The notes beneath the pieces are model-generated. The model did not search any database, was not told the origin of the DNA, and saw only the letters and a program-made list of their open reading frames with translations. Shown here in pieces: positions 1-17,328 of a DNA stretch of 26,456 bases (position 1 is its first letter; each line of letters starts with the position of its first letter). The translations under genes and the position numbers were made by a program. The stretch is taken from IMG/VR virus record IMGVR_UViG_3300010151_000123, positions 1-26,456 of that record. The stretch is one strand, 5' to 3'. Source of the DNA: a virus.

Positions 1-177
1 GAACAGATCATGACAGAGATTCAAAACTACTCTGAAGAGAACGGCAAGTTCACAGAGAAGGGTGTTAAGGCTTCTGCAACAAGAGCCAGAAAAGCATTAG
101 CGGCTTTGTCAAAATTGATCAAAGCAAGAAGAAAAGAAATTCAAGAGGCTAAAAACGCGGCAAAAACTGCGGCGTAA
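1..177 (+). CDS. Histone H1/Hc1-like small basic protein (3' end only)
   Basis: The frame is open from the first base to a double stop (TAA TAA at 175-180), giving the last 58 residues of a protein that starts before the window. The tail is rich in Lys, Arg and Ala, with segments such as KASATRARKALAALSKLIKA and KARRKEIQEA that form a basic helix. This resembles the chlamydial Hc1/histone H1-like family, versions of which occur in marine T4-like phages. Such proteins bind DNA and may help condense the phage or host nucleoid. The family assignment rests on composition and helical pattern only, because the N-terminus is not visible. A strong hairpin terminator follows 25 bases after the stop. 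Confidence 0.55.
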   Translation, partial: EQIMTEIQNYSEENGKFTEKGVKASATRARKALAALSKLIKARRKEIQEAKNAAKTAA

Positions 178-201: not shown

Positions 202-233
202 AAAGCCTCTGCTATATAGTGGAGGCTTTTTCT
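202..233. terminator. Bidirectional rho-independent terminator
   Basis: Perfect 8-bp stem AAAGCCTC (202-209) with GAGGCTTT (222-229), 12-base loop, then a T-rich run. The A run on the left side gives a U tract on the minus strand as well. It sits between two convergent genes, so it probably ends both transcripts. Confidence 0.8.
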
Positions 234-663
234 ATTTTAAAATACCCTTTGTAGATTTTTCTCTAAGAATTCCAGAACCGTGTATTCGTACACGAATATG
301 ACCATTGTAATAATCATCAGTTTCTAATACTTTACGTGCAAATTGTTCTCTGGCTTCAACATATGATAATTCTGCTTTTGACTTACAATAAAAAAGTATT
401 TCTCTTTTAAATTTATCTTTACCAAGTTTTTCAACGTCCTCATTTAAAGCATCACTCGAACCATAGTAATGTTTCCAATCACTTAATACAGTATACCTAC
501 GTTTGTTAATTCTTCCCTTTAATGGTCTACGTGATTTTCTAAATCTTGCTAATTTTTTACCAATATATTTCTTTCCGTTGTGTGTGTTTGTAATTTCATA
601 CACAAACCCTGCACACCATTTTGGTAATTCAGTAACAATTTTGCTGTTATATATCCAATCCAT
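232..663 (-). CDS. GIY-YIG endonuclease, SegE-like
   Basis: 143 aa. The GIY-YIG signature is near the N-terminus: GFVY at residues 19-22 stands for GIY, and KKYIGKK at 31-37 holds YIG. A basic stretch follows (FRKSRRPLKGRINKRR, about 41-56), then a second half with an E-rich helix (YVEAREQFA). This matches small phage proteins of the SegE-like GIY-YIG type, which in T4 relatives act as freestanding homing endonucleases. The size suits a catalytic domain with little extra DNA-binding region. It lies between a convergent gene sharing its terminator and a divergent auxiliary cassette, a typical place for a mobile gene. The start is ATG at 663. Activity and target are inferred. Confidence 0.7.
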   Translation of the reverse strand: MDWIYNSKIVTELPKWCAGFVYEITNTHNGKKYIGKKLARFRKSRRPLKGRINKRRYTVLSDWKHYYGSSDALNEDVEKLGKDKFKREILFYCKSKAELSYVEAREQFARKVLETDDYYNGHIRVRIHGSGILREKSTKGILK

Positions 664-1695: not shown

Positions 1696-2147
1696 GAAAA
1701 CTCATATAAACATATGCGATAGGCATACTATATTCTTTTAAAATTTCAATAGGCAAACATAGCATCTTAGAAGTGAGCACGGAAATGCGGCTAACAAGCG
1801 ACAGGTGAATCCGTTGATGCACCAGGCAAAAATGATGAGGCTCTGAGAAACAGCAACCTCAGGTTTACCAAAAAATATCATGCAAAGATTTGGTAGACTC
1901 GCGTTGGATGAATAAGCGAATGGGTACAGCACAACCGCCCAGTTACGATAGCGTTGCATGGTGACTGTGATACTCGCCACAGTGGAGTATAAAGTCAGTT
2001 CGGCTAGAAATAGCCGAATTGTGACTGCTCATCTGCCACAGTAGACGCAAAAATTAAAATTGCGTTAGCGTAAGTTAAAAAAGAAACGAGCATAAGCGAA
2101 GTTTCAGATGGCTGAGGCCATCTTTGCATTGATATTAAGTAGTGTAT
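1696..2147 (+). ncRNA. Candidate large structured RNA / regulatory leader
   Basis: No convincing reading frame spans these roughly 450 bases, and the stretch is visibly less AT-rich than its flanks. Plus-strand helices: 1773-1779 with 2026-2032 (closing, 7 bp with one G-U); ACGGA 1779-1783 with 1810-1814; TGAGG 1836-1840 with 1857-1861; TACCAAA 1866-1872 with 1889-1895; 1940-1946 with 1961-1967 (7 bp, one G-U); ATACTC 1970-1975 with 1985-1990; AGTCA 1993-1997 with 2022-2026, enclosing TTCGGCTA 1999-2006 with 2011-2018 and a GAAA tetraloop; ACGCAA 2045-2050 with 2060-2065; GAAAC 2083-2087 with 2101-2105; AGATGGC 2106-2112 with 2117-2123. Loop 1874-1889 is complementary to 2120-2136 over 16 bp with one bulge, a pseudoknot ending 11 bases before ATG 2148. 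A weak TTGACC/TATAAA promoter-like pair lies at 1684-1710. The family is not recognised; GOLLD-, HEARO- or IMES-type RNAs are possible comparators. Confidence 0.65.
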
Positions 2148-2999
2148 ATGCAATTGCCACATGATCCCTTAAAAACTAAAGAAGTTATCGAATATGTTGA
2201 TAATATTCTGGTAAAACTTAATTATACCGACTTGGATAATTTTAGTGTAACGCAATTCGAGTCCGGTTGGCGGACTTGGTTGTCTAATTCTTCTTACAAT
2301 AAAATAATTGGGTTGGAAAGTATGGAACATTGTGCTTTTTGTCCAGGAACTACTGACGCATTTGGCGAATTCATTTCTCGATACCATAACAATAGAATTA
2401 GAGTAAGCAGAAGTGACTTTATTATAACACGAGTATTGTCTAAAGCATACGAGAGAAACTTATGTTACCTCGAAGATGACGAACTTCGTGCAGGAGATTC
2501 ATTAATAATAAGTGTACCATTCTCTGGCAACGGTGCTATGCACCCAGAGTTCGATAAAATAATGGACACTTGTGATAGTTTAAACATTCCAGTGTTTATC
2601 GATGCCGCATACTTTGGCATATCTCATGGTATTACATACGACTTAACAAGGCCTTGTATAAAAGATATTGCAACTAGTTTAAGTAAAAACTTTGTAGGTA
2701 ATCCTATGCGACTAGGTATACGTTTTACAAAAGATCGTATCGATGATAGTATTACTATTGCACTGCTTGGTGCAAATATATTTGACAAAGTTAATGGTTA
2801 CATTAGTTCGGAACTACTTAAAAAGTTTCCACAGGACTGGCTAATAGAGAAATACATGGACAAAAGCAAAACTGTATGTAAAGAATTAGGACTACAACCA
2901 ACAAATACATTAACATTGGCTATTGGTAACGATTCTATGCAAGAGTATAAAAGAGGGGATTATATTCGTGTCTGTATCTCGAACCACTTATCTAAATAG
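2148..2999 (+). CDS. PLP-dependent aminotransferase-fold (fold type I) protein
   Basis: 283 aa from ATG 2148; GTG 2142 in the same frame is possible, and no strong Shine-Dalgarno is present. A fold-type I pattern is seen: FCPGTTDAFGEF (about 64-75) as the phosphate-binding turn; VFIDAAYFG (about 149-157), where D152 and Y155 match the PLP-ring Asp and the D-x-A-Y motif; and TSLSKNF (about 176-182), with K180 as the Schiff-base lysine. It is shorter than a usual aminotransferase (about 380-420 aa), and the C-terminal small domain seems reduced, so it may be a minimal or altered enzyme. The 5' side carries the candidate structured RNA, whose 3' strand lies just before the start. The 3' end overlaps the next gene by 32 bases. 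Substrate unknown. Confidence 0.65.
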   Translation: MQLPHDPLKTKEVIEYVDNILVKLNYTDLDNFSVTQFESGWRTWLSNSSYNKIIGLESMEHCAFCPGTTDAFGEFISRYHNNRIRVSRSDFIITRVLSKAYERNLCYLEDDELRAGDSLIISVPFSGNGAMHPEFDKIMDTCDSLNIPVFIDAAYFGISHGITYDLTRPCIKDIATSLSKNFVGNPMRLGIRFTKDRIDDSITIALLGANIFDKVNGYISSELLKKFPQDWLIEKYMDKSKTVCKELGLQPTNTLTLAIGNDSMQEYKRGDYIRVCISNHLSK

Positions 3000-3585
3000 T
3001 ATAAAAGACAAAGACTACAGTTGGATTGGCAACATTAAAGCAGATTGGTCAGCAATACAACAAGAATGTAAACAAACAGTACAAGATCATCCTGAATGTT
3101 GGCAAACACTTGTAGGTAAACGTGATTCTTGGGATAAAATGGGTGAAGGCCTTAATAAAGAATTAGAAAAACATAAAGAATCAGGATACAATCCTCAAAA
3201 TACTCGACATTGGGAAACAACAACTATTCAACCCAAGGTAGAAATGTCGTGGGAAAAGGAAATTATGGATCAATTGCCATTAATTAATCCTACTAGTAGG
3301 CCGACACTACAACCGCCAGGCAATATAATGCCATGGCACCAAGATAGATTTTTTTATTTTAAACGAAATAACCCTGGCCAGGAAGAATTTGTTGTAAGAT
3401 ACATACTATTTCAAACAGATTGGCACAATGGACATTTATTACAAGCAGGTAATTCATTTGTATCACACTGGAAAGCAGGTGATATTTTATTATGGTACCC
3501 TGATCGTTGGCATTTGTCTGCTAACGTAGGAACTGAAGACAAATGGACTTGTACCGTAACTGGAATATTAAAAGAAGAAGTATGA
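2968..3585 (+). CDS. 2OG-Fe(II) oxygenase-like protein (jelly-roll)
   Basis: 205 aa from GTG 2968. That start is preferred because AGAGGGG at about 2952-2958 gives a strong ribosome site about 9 bases upstream, whereas the frame-open region further upstream overlaps deeply with the PLP gene. The metal triad fits non-haem iron oxygenases: MPWHQDRFFYF (H124, D126) for HxD, and GDILLWYPDRWHLSANVG (H182) for the distal His; KWTCTVTG follows, with a Lys that could bind 2-oxoglutarate. Such enzymes hydroxylate small molecules, protein or nucleic acid. It overlaps the preceding gene by 32 bases and the next by ATGA, so translation is coupled. The fold is fairly certain; the substrate is not. Confidence 0.7.
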   Translation: MSVSRTTYLNSIKDKDYSWIGNIKADWSAIQQECKQTVQDHPECWQTLVGKRDSWDKMGEGLNKELEKHKESGYNPQNTRHWETTTIQPKVEMSWEKEIMDQLPLINPTSRPTLQPPGNIMPWHQDRFFYFKRNNPGQEEFVVRYILFQTDWHNGHLLQAGNSFVSHWKAGDILLWYPDRWHLSANVGTEDKWTCTVTGILKEEV

Positions 3586-4259
3586 AAACTTTTGTATATG
3601 GCGATTCATTTAGTAATGCCGAATGGTGTAAGTGTACTACAGATAAAATGTGGTATGCACCTTTAGTATCAGGTGAACTAGTTGATAGAACACGTGAAGG
3701 CGCCAGCACCGAGGAAATGTTTTTATTAGCAGTAAATGATGCTGTTACTAATTCTAATGCAAGATTTATATTAGCAACTGGTATGATGTATTCTAGATTA
3801 ATGTTGTATAAAGATTGTTTGTACGACAACGAACAAATCCGGGACGGATCACTTACAGACTGTTTGCCATATTTTGACACACAACGTTTAGATAAAAATT
3901 TACACGTAGGAATTTTTCATCATACACTAGTATGGGCAAAATATCTTACTAATATTGTAACATTTAAAAGTTTAATGGACTCAAGATCACACGAATGGTT
4001 AGCAGTACATATGCATACTGATAAAAAAGATTATCAAAGTCCGTCGAATCCTATGATACTACCATTATTAAAAACTACAGCAGATATGGTCAACTATGTT
4101 GATCAGCGACATTCATGTTATAGTGTATGCCAACAGGCAGAAATAAAACCACGGGACTATGATCAACACGGTTACAATGGACATCATTCTGCAGAAGGAC
4201 AACAATACTTTAGCAAACATGTATTAAAAGTTTTACAAGAAAGGAACATACTGATATAA
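3582..4259 (+). CDS. SGNH/GDSL hydrolase-like protein
   Basis: 225 aa from ATG 3582, which overlaps the upstream stop (ATGA). The N-terminus has VYGDSFSNAE, the GDS block I with a candidate nucleophile S9. Near the C-terminus DYDQHGYNGHHSAEGQQYF (about 192-210) resembles block V, where a typical form is DG-x-H-P-S-x-x-G. Here the usual Asp is replaced by Asn (N199), with D194 nearby as a possible substitute, so catalysis should not be assumed. SGNH enzymes are esterases or acyl hydrolases and also occur in glycan O-acetyl chemistry. ATG/TAA overlap with the next gene indicates one operon. Confidence 0.6.
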   Translation: MKTFVYGDSFSNAEWCKCTTDKMWYAPLVSGELVDRTREGASTEEMFLLAVNDAVTNSNARFILATGMMYSRLMLYKDCLYDNEQIRDGSLTDCLPYFDTQRLDKNLHVGIFHHTLVWAKYLTNIVTFKSLMDSRSHEWLAVHMHTDKKDYQSPSNPMILPLLKTTADMVNYVDQRHSCYSVCQQAEIKPRDYDQHGYNGHHSAEGQQYFSKHVLKVLQERNILI

Positions 4260-16811: not shown

Positions 16812-16883
16812 CAGAGCCGCACAATAAAGTGCGGACTTATGCGGAAATAACCGCGTAGTGAGTAGAACTCACATCAGGCTCTG
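16812..16883 (+). promoter_or_regulatory. Cloverleaf-like structured mRNA leader
   Basis: Outer stem CAGAGCC (16812-16818) with GGCTCTG (16877-16883) encloses three hairpins: CCGCAC/GTGCGG (16817-16834, competing for the last two outer bases), GCGG/CCGC (16841-16854) and GTGAG/CTCAC (16858-16872). The AAGGAG ribosome site begins 4 bases after the outer stem. It is not a tRNA: no T-loop sequence, anticodon arm or CCA. It may stabilise the late mRNA or control translation. Confidence 0.6.
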
Positions 16884-16899
16884 AACAAGGAGAAAAAAA

Positions 16900-17328
16900 A
16901 TGGGAAGACCAATCAAAAAAAGTAAACTAGCGGGTGCGGCCAATATATTTGGTTCAGCCGATCTAGCAGGAAAAATCGCAGTAACGGCTTATAGACCATC
17001 AAGTGGTGCTAAGGTAGATTCAACTACTGCATACATTGTTTCACAAAGAGGTTCTAAGTTATTCAAAATACACTTAGAAGATTCAACTGAAGCAGTATAT
17101 GAATTGAAAGCAGTTGCTCCAGGATCATTAGCAAACTCGTCTAACCAGTTCTGTGTTCAAGTTATATTGAATGACTCAACAGTTGCATACGTTGAAAAGT
17201 TCTACAACAGAACAATTCACTATGTTACTGCGGCTGGCGCGGCAGGTACTGTGACATACTCACTAGGAGTTGAAGGAACTGACGAAGCACAAGCAGGCGC
17301 AGGCATCGGCTCTATAGACGTTAGATAA
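16900..17328 (+). CDS. Small virion-type structural protein
   Basis: 142 aa from ATG 16900, with AAGGAG at 16887-16892. It begins MGRPIKKSKLAGAANIFGSA, a basic head common to short marine-phage proteins of the MGRP type, and continues with beta-rich segments (AVTAYRPSSGAKVD, AYVEKFYNRTIHYVTAAGAA) and a Gly/Ala-rich end. No enzyme motif or membrane segment is seen. The folded leader, dedicated promoter and following terminator show it is a separate, probably highly expressed late unit, suiting an abundant virion component such as a decoration protein; that role is inference. Confidence 0.7.
   Translation: MGRPIKKSKLAGAANIFGSADLAGKIAVTAYRPSSGAKVDSTTAYIVSQRGSKLFKIHLEDSTEAVYELKAVAPGSLANSSNQFCVQVILNDSTVAYVEKFYNRTIHYVTAAGAAGTVTYSLGVEGTDEAQAGAGIGSIDVR

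Follow-up and report, generated by a model that had tools for sequence, protein, structure and literature searches.

The window analysed here, the whole stretch of 26,456 nucleotides from an IMG/VR record, is a 26-kb fragment of a T4-like phage. The genes for the portal gp20, a T4 baseplate-family protein, the prohead protease and the major capsid protein gp23 were recognisable in it, and its portal was closest to those of jumbo phages such as Phosso, Atu_ph07 and PA5oct (50-54% identity). A gene for an Hc1 histone H1-like protein (1-177, plus strand; PF07432, E 1.8e-11) and one for a SegE-like GIY-YIG endonuclease (232-663, minus strand; PF19835, E 7.7e-35) lie near the beginning of the window, upstream of the RNA described below, and the SegE-like gene is one gene away from that RNA because the ORF at 676-1695 stands in between. 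The gap of interest extends from the end of this ORF at 1695 to the start of a PLP-type gene near 2148, for which no relative was found among the cultured phage records. Small metabolism-type genes (aminotransferase-like, PhyH-like dioxygenase) occupy 2142-4259, separating the RNA from the structural genes. A freshwater-2 RNA (RF02980, 77.1 bits), a known cis-element, was detected at 16817-16902 on the plus strand, just upstream of a gene at 16900; it was considered as the origin of a motif shared with the RNA at 1718-2123, and this likeness was judged a coincidence.

The preliminary description had held that 1696-2147 contains no convincing gene and is less AT-rich than its flanks, and both points were borne out. 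No credible gene was present in the gap, and the GC content was 0.40-0.47 over 1726-2100, whereas most windows upstream had 0.23-0.37 and those downstream 0.31-0.40. The minimum free energy was -125 kcal/mol, while shuffled sequences gave -105.2 ± 5.6 (z -3.5), and every shuffle was beaten. In the comparison with Rfam 15 that had been proposed, no family reached its gathering threshold; over 1600-2250 and up to E 10, sR5 alone was returned, at E 9.2 and 10.8 bits against 40, which is meaningless. The divergent homologues gave no family match either, the one match, in L194, being an unrelated tRNA. ARAGORN and Rfam agreed with the earlier view that no tmRNA, RNase P, tRNA or group I/II intron core is present: ARAGORN found no tRNA-like domain of tmRNA, and the Rfam models of tmRNA, RNase P and group I/II introns did not match. 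Three local likenesses were noted. The tag-like frame GCAAAAATTAAAATTGCGTTAGCGTAA (AKIKIALA*, about 2047-2073) was not conserved in the homologues, and tmRNA was rejected. The series ACAG..ACCGCC presumably only resembles RNase P. A GAAA hairpin looks like group II domain 5 (34 nt, with a 2-nt bulge), but its bulge is at the wrong level and Rfam gave no match. The RNA interrupts no gene; it is intergenic, with a divergent gene before it in most loci with room.

Homologues were collected from marine metagenomes, as had been suggested. The exact 18-mer of the hairpin was scanned across IMG/VR and returned 94 stretches, nearly all of them homologous across most of the element with 73-90% identity. 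A second motif, AAYGGGTAYNGCNNNACCGCCC, led to further loci among the matches listed in viral contigs and also in GTDB genomes, where the other matches to this pattern were attributed to chance. When a locus was counted as a profile match at E below 1e-3, at least 167 homologous loci were obtained in all, mostly in IMG/VR contigs, with five in marine MAGs. These five contigs were assigned to Marinimicrobia, Rickettsiales, Pacearchaeota, Betaproteobacteria and Pelagibacter, and their copies of the RNA are presumably phage. Contigs of up to 197 kb carried one strong copy each. A conserved reading frame across the region, which would have argued against an RNA, was absent (the longest ORFs of the homologues had a median of 63 aa, and those of shuffled sequence 55 aa). 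Searching INPHARED with blastn gave chance matches or none, and no description of the RNA was found in the literature.

Helices were brought out by mutual information in 108 sequences, and covariation was assessed on a tree-based null of 100 sequences, in which the substitutions of each branch were put at random columns in 40 replicates. Fourteen column pairs were significant at E 0.05, of which 12 were Watson-Crick helix pairs and two a direct-repeat coupling. In addition, 57 diverse sequences out of the same set were aligned separately with MAFFT, and the alignment was scored with a structure of 13 helices and 69 pairs that includes two pseudoknots. In this alignment 96.1% of cells were paired, compared with 81.1% with shuffled partners and 35-41% when the structure was slid, a percentage that is somewhat favoured because the structure was drawn with the same sequences in view. 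The two-sided changes are stronger evidence: they occurred at 47 of the 69 pairs, in 601 cells versus 158 in shuffles, and the covariation score was 0.484 versus 0.194. Together, the homologues and the covariation strongly supported the earlier suggestion of a new phage ncRNA.

The structured RNA is predicted to span 1718-2123 on the plus strand (about 410 nt), and the features below lie on the same strand. P1 (1762-1766/1816-1820) surrounds P1.1 (1780-1783/1810-1813), whose pair 1780-1813 was significant on the tree null, and a variable hairpin. P2 (1837-1840/1857-1860) with P2b (1844-1845/1854-1855) contains a conserved internal GCTCT..GAAA; all cells of these helices were paired, two-sided changes were seen at five of six pairs, and 1838-1859 and 1845-1854 were significant. 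The P3 hairpin (1862-1872/1889-1899, continued by 1875-1876/1885-1886) showed two-sided changes at 11 of 13 pairs, five of them significant. In the pseudoknotted core at 1903-1952 (PK2), 1903-1906/1932-1935 is crossed by 1921-1924/1938-1941, with closing pairs 1916-1917/1951-1952 and a small hairpin at 1942-1943/1948-1949. The core contains the near-invariant GGGTACAGC...ACCGCCC, and its four helices were fully paired in all 57 sequences; several pairs covary, 1921-1941 and 1943-1948 significantly. Downstream, the preliminary description had noted a GAAA hairpin of 8 bp. The hairpin is real and has clear compensatory changes, but its length is 10 bp (P5b, 1997-2006/2011-2020, with a GAAA/GNRA-type loop; 98.8% paired, two-sided changes at five of ten pairs). 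P6 (2083-2087/2101-2105) had two-sided changes at all five pairs, and the 3'-terminal hairpin P7 (2106-2123), terminator-like with few Ts after it, was 86.7% paired with two-sided changes at four of seven pairs.

The feature emphasised previously was a 16-bp pairing between the P3 loop region (1874-1889) and 2120-2136, taken as a long-range pseudoknot that would set the fold. This complementarity exists in the sequence and is longer than the maximum of 12 in 60 dinucleotide shuffles. However, it was not conserved across the family, as 59.2% of its cells were paired in the homologues and 58.4% with partners shuffled; its covariation did not exceed the shuffles, and it clashes with P7, which includes 2120-2123. 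The P3 loop (1878-1884) pairs instead with 1955-1961 in a predicted long-range pseudoknot, PK1 (1878-1961), with 97.2% of cells paired, two-sided changes at six of seven pairs and 1883-1956 significant on the tree null. The conserved partner of the P3 apical loop in the comparative model is therefore 1955-1961 in place of 2120-2136, and a fold organised by the 16-bp pairing is barely credible. As judged from the alignments, the pseudoknotted core (P2, P3, PK1 and PK2) was shown to be under strong structural selection.

A sigma70-like promoter was predicted at 1684-1712, inside and after the 3' end of the upstream ORF, with a -35 element TTGACC (1684-1689), a 17-nt spacer and a -10-like TAAACA (1707-1712); TATAAA at 1705-1710 is an alternative -10, and the predicted start is about 1718. 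The -10 in the window's own predicted promoter is weak. The pattern TTGAC-N17-TATATA/TAAACA stood at a fixed position, in conserved columns, in many homologues, and the mean best score was 8.67 versus 7.94 in shuffles. Since no ORF is conserved, the RNA has its own predicted promoter and the downstream genes vary, we infer that the RNA would be stand-alone and independently transcribed, as an early RNA. A perfect TTGACA-17-TATAAT at the start of two of three loci in the cultured phage Cassandra also speaks for a stand-alone RNA. A leader or riboswitch acting in cis on the downstream gene would account for the gene that begins in the window on the same strand some 25 bases beyond the last hairpin, and a gene start is close downstream in many homologues too. 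However, the downstream genes differ between loci and other phages carry the RNA in other surroundings; the position before a PLP-enzyme gene, to which the preliminary description drew attention, is incidental, as other genes are found there in many homologues. The last hairpin of the RNA is also terminator-like, and beyond it there may be a new promoter-like element: TTAAGTA at 2135-2141 (plus strand), weakly suggestive of a late-promoter-like element of the next gene, recurs ahead of the next ATG in many homologues, although it was not a general late-gene signal within the window. A cis-acting role is thus quite improbable.

Of the 146 loci with room for it, 86 have a divergently oriented SegE-like GIY-YIG gene immediately upstream of the RNA, and the gene is nearby in most. 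This neighbourhood would be expected if the RNA were a HEARO-like mobile element tied to the endonuclease. However, no GIY-YIG gene was found within 5 kb in L024, L044, L109 and L149, which are among the most divergent members, and none is annotated around the loci of Atu_ph07 and the PA5oct-like phages. The remaining gene neighbourhood is just as syntenic. Because the gene is missing from several of the most divergent loci, we read the association as synteny and regard a mobile element as very improbable.

To place the RNA among cultured phages, a covariance model of P1 and P2 (R1) was used. The best R1 match in Atu_ph07 was at 490237-490320 on the minus strand (E 0.015), in an unannotated stretch; it was missing from a rerun with a stricter filter on 14 genomes, and the match alone is therefore weak. 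The assignment is based on the elements that come after it: a hairpin, then GGGTACAGGACAACCGCC without mismatch, then a strand able to pair with the loop of that hairpin over 8 bp. A paralogue with a highly similar core lies at 383.3 kb in a 2.2-kb unannotated gap, and at the same place it has a different, again complementary, loop/strand pair of 7 bp. Both copies contain GGGTACAGGACAACCGCC, the motif of the core, or a near variant of it. The loop/strand complements were not significant singly (46 and 105 of 300 shuffles reached them), and the pairing is persuasive because of its matching position in both copies. On these sequence features, Atu_ph07 (NC_042013) carries two divergent copies of the predicted RNA, in the gaps 489783-490380 and 382156-384352, both on the minus strand and each followed by a strong terminator-like hairpin.

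In the PA5oct-like Pseudomonas phages, whose 11 records share at least 99% identity, the P2 motif occurs ahead of the portal gene in the corresponding position (nhmmer E 0.006), and 5' blocks of a similar kind were seen at two other loci; R1 gave E 0.12 over the three loci and 0.38 over the genome. From these matches, they probably belong to the family. In Cassandra (OR805292), similar and apparently non-coding loci were observed at 117.3-118.1, 170.9-171.6 and 235.2-236.1 kb, annotated with tiny hypothetical ORFs only; the P3-loop pseudoknot was not supported there. The Sinorhizobium phage Phosso has, ahead of its portal gene, an unannotated gap of 1,014 bp (L193, 8127-9140) that looks hairpin-rich and gave no match to the family model. 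Matches that fell within coding genes in fEgEco12, Hallingskeid, Vibrio 2.275.O and, once, in Atu_ph07 were rejected as chance. By homology and covariation, the RNA at 1718-2123 is the founding member of an uncatalogued family of predicted RNAs in T4-like marine and jumbo phages.

Two sets of repeated short elements were found in the marine RNAs. The A/T-rich leader (1721-1755) has AGGCA at 1721-1725 and 1751-1755, and a third copy lies further downstream at 1824-1828. Two to four GGCA/GGCT motifs, mostly AGGCA, were present in 96 of 97 leaders, with a mean of 2.35 versus 0.16 in shuffles (fifteen-fold). The leaders of the divergent members L044 and L024 are CA-rich (CACAAACAATCACACAAACAATCACACA in L044) in addition to having GGCA motifs. 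The second set is a pair of putative recognition repeats, GCCACA in the window, at 1976-1981 in or next to a variable hairpin loop and at 2035-2040, with P5b between them. Nine variants of this 6-mer were observed (ACCACA, GCCACA, AGCACA, AGTACA, GGTACA, ACTACA, ACATGA, ACATCA and ACGTGA), and each was the same in both copies, which change in step. Positions 1978-2037 and 1976-2035 were coupled as identical bases (100% identical; E 0.025 and 0.05 on the tree null), the coupling consisting of these two column pairs only, at 40 null alignments.

A partner for the repeats inside the RNA was rejected, as no reverse complement of the 6-mer was found within the RNAs. Since pairing inside the RNA cannot explain the coupling and two sites for an external partner can, the pattern suggests that the same partner binds in trans at both copies. 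An antisense-type regulator, in which the identical loops would pair with one phage or host target RNA and changes in the target would force both copies, is compatible with a six-base variable core that changes in step. However, the reverse complement of each RNA's own variant was not enriched in the flanking phage DNA, the searchable genomes being partial, and we consider this reading unlikely, though deserving of some weight. The repeat module is apparently absent from the Atu_ph07 RNA, and the repeats are therefore not a universal function of the family.

Our best guess, held tentatively and at rather less than even confidence, is a stand-alone, trans-acting RNA that binds its partner multivalently. 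The pseudoknotted core would act as a rigid scaffold displaying the repeated elements, by which the RNA may bind a single kind of phage or host partner in two or more copies. This partner could be a short RNA or an RNA-binding protein, which the RNA might titrate or assemble early in infection. A more specific proposal, which we put forward as doubtful, is a new functional class in which a folded scaffold carries two interchangeable recognition loops that co-evolve with a single lineage-specific partner; such RNAs would be widespread in jumbo phages and in T4-like marine phages, some genomes having two or three copies. The result adds to phages, cultured ones included, a family of abundant and highly structured RNAs that had not been listed; public genomes leave these stretches unannotated or fill them with tiny hypothetical ORFs. 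Its carriers include Atu_ph07 on A. tumefaciens C58 and, tentatively, the PA5oct-like phages on P. aeruginosa PAO1. As the family is present in cultured phages, the long-standing question of the role of large phage RNAs becomes testable. Two identical loops evolving in step form an unusual signature, which may allow a binding partner to be identified.

Among known systems, GOLLD and ROOL are phage-encoded, multi-helix, pseudoknotted and stand-alone RNAs (PMC12286853). The window RNA shares these properties, GOLLD also being large and known from aquatic metagenomes, and ROOL and OLE are likewise ornate and conserved. GOLLD, ROOL and OLE work by self-assembly into homo-oligomers. An ornate homo-oligomer of this kind, in which the identical loops would make equivalent assembly contacts, is nevertheless improbable. 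No complement of the 6-mer occurs within the RNA, and self-complementarity is lacking in most variants, which excludes kissing loops between identical monomers; at about 410 nt, the RNA is also half as long as many GOLLD RNAs (more than 800 nt). The family models of GOLLD, ROOL and OLE gave no match, the window lacks a tRNA gene, and the GGGTACAGC..ACCGCCC core and the paired repeats are peculiar to the window RNA. A distant GOLLD-, HEARO- or IMES-type RNA, which the preliminary description had considered, was accordingly not supported, with no Rfam 15 match for the window RNA or its divergent homologues. HEARO (IscB omega RNA) and free-standing homing endonucleases resemble the marine loci in that a nuclease gene adjoins the RNA in most of them, but the association is not constant and is lost in divergent members. 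Freshwater-2 is also a phage RNA motif and occurs in the same window; unlike the RNA at 1718-2123, it is short, stands directly before a start codon and belongs to a known, unrelated family. CsrB, RsmY and RsmZ are structured, multivalent sponge RNAs that titrate their binding protein through repeated GGA motifs. The window RNA likewise has repeated identical motifs, the AGGCA motifs of the leader and the paired 6-mers, suggesting titration of a binding protein, whereas its motifs are AGGCA and a lineage-variable 6-mer instead of GGA, and are combined with an elaborate pseudoknotted core.
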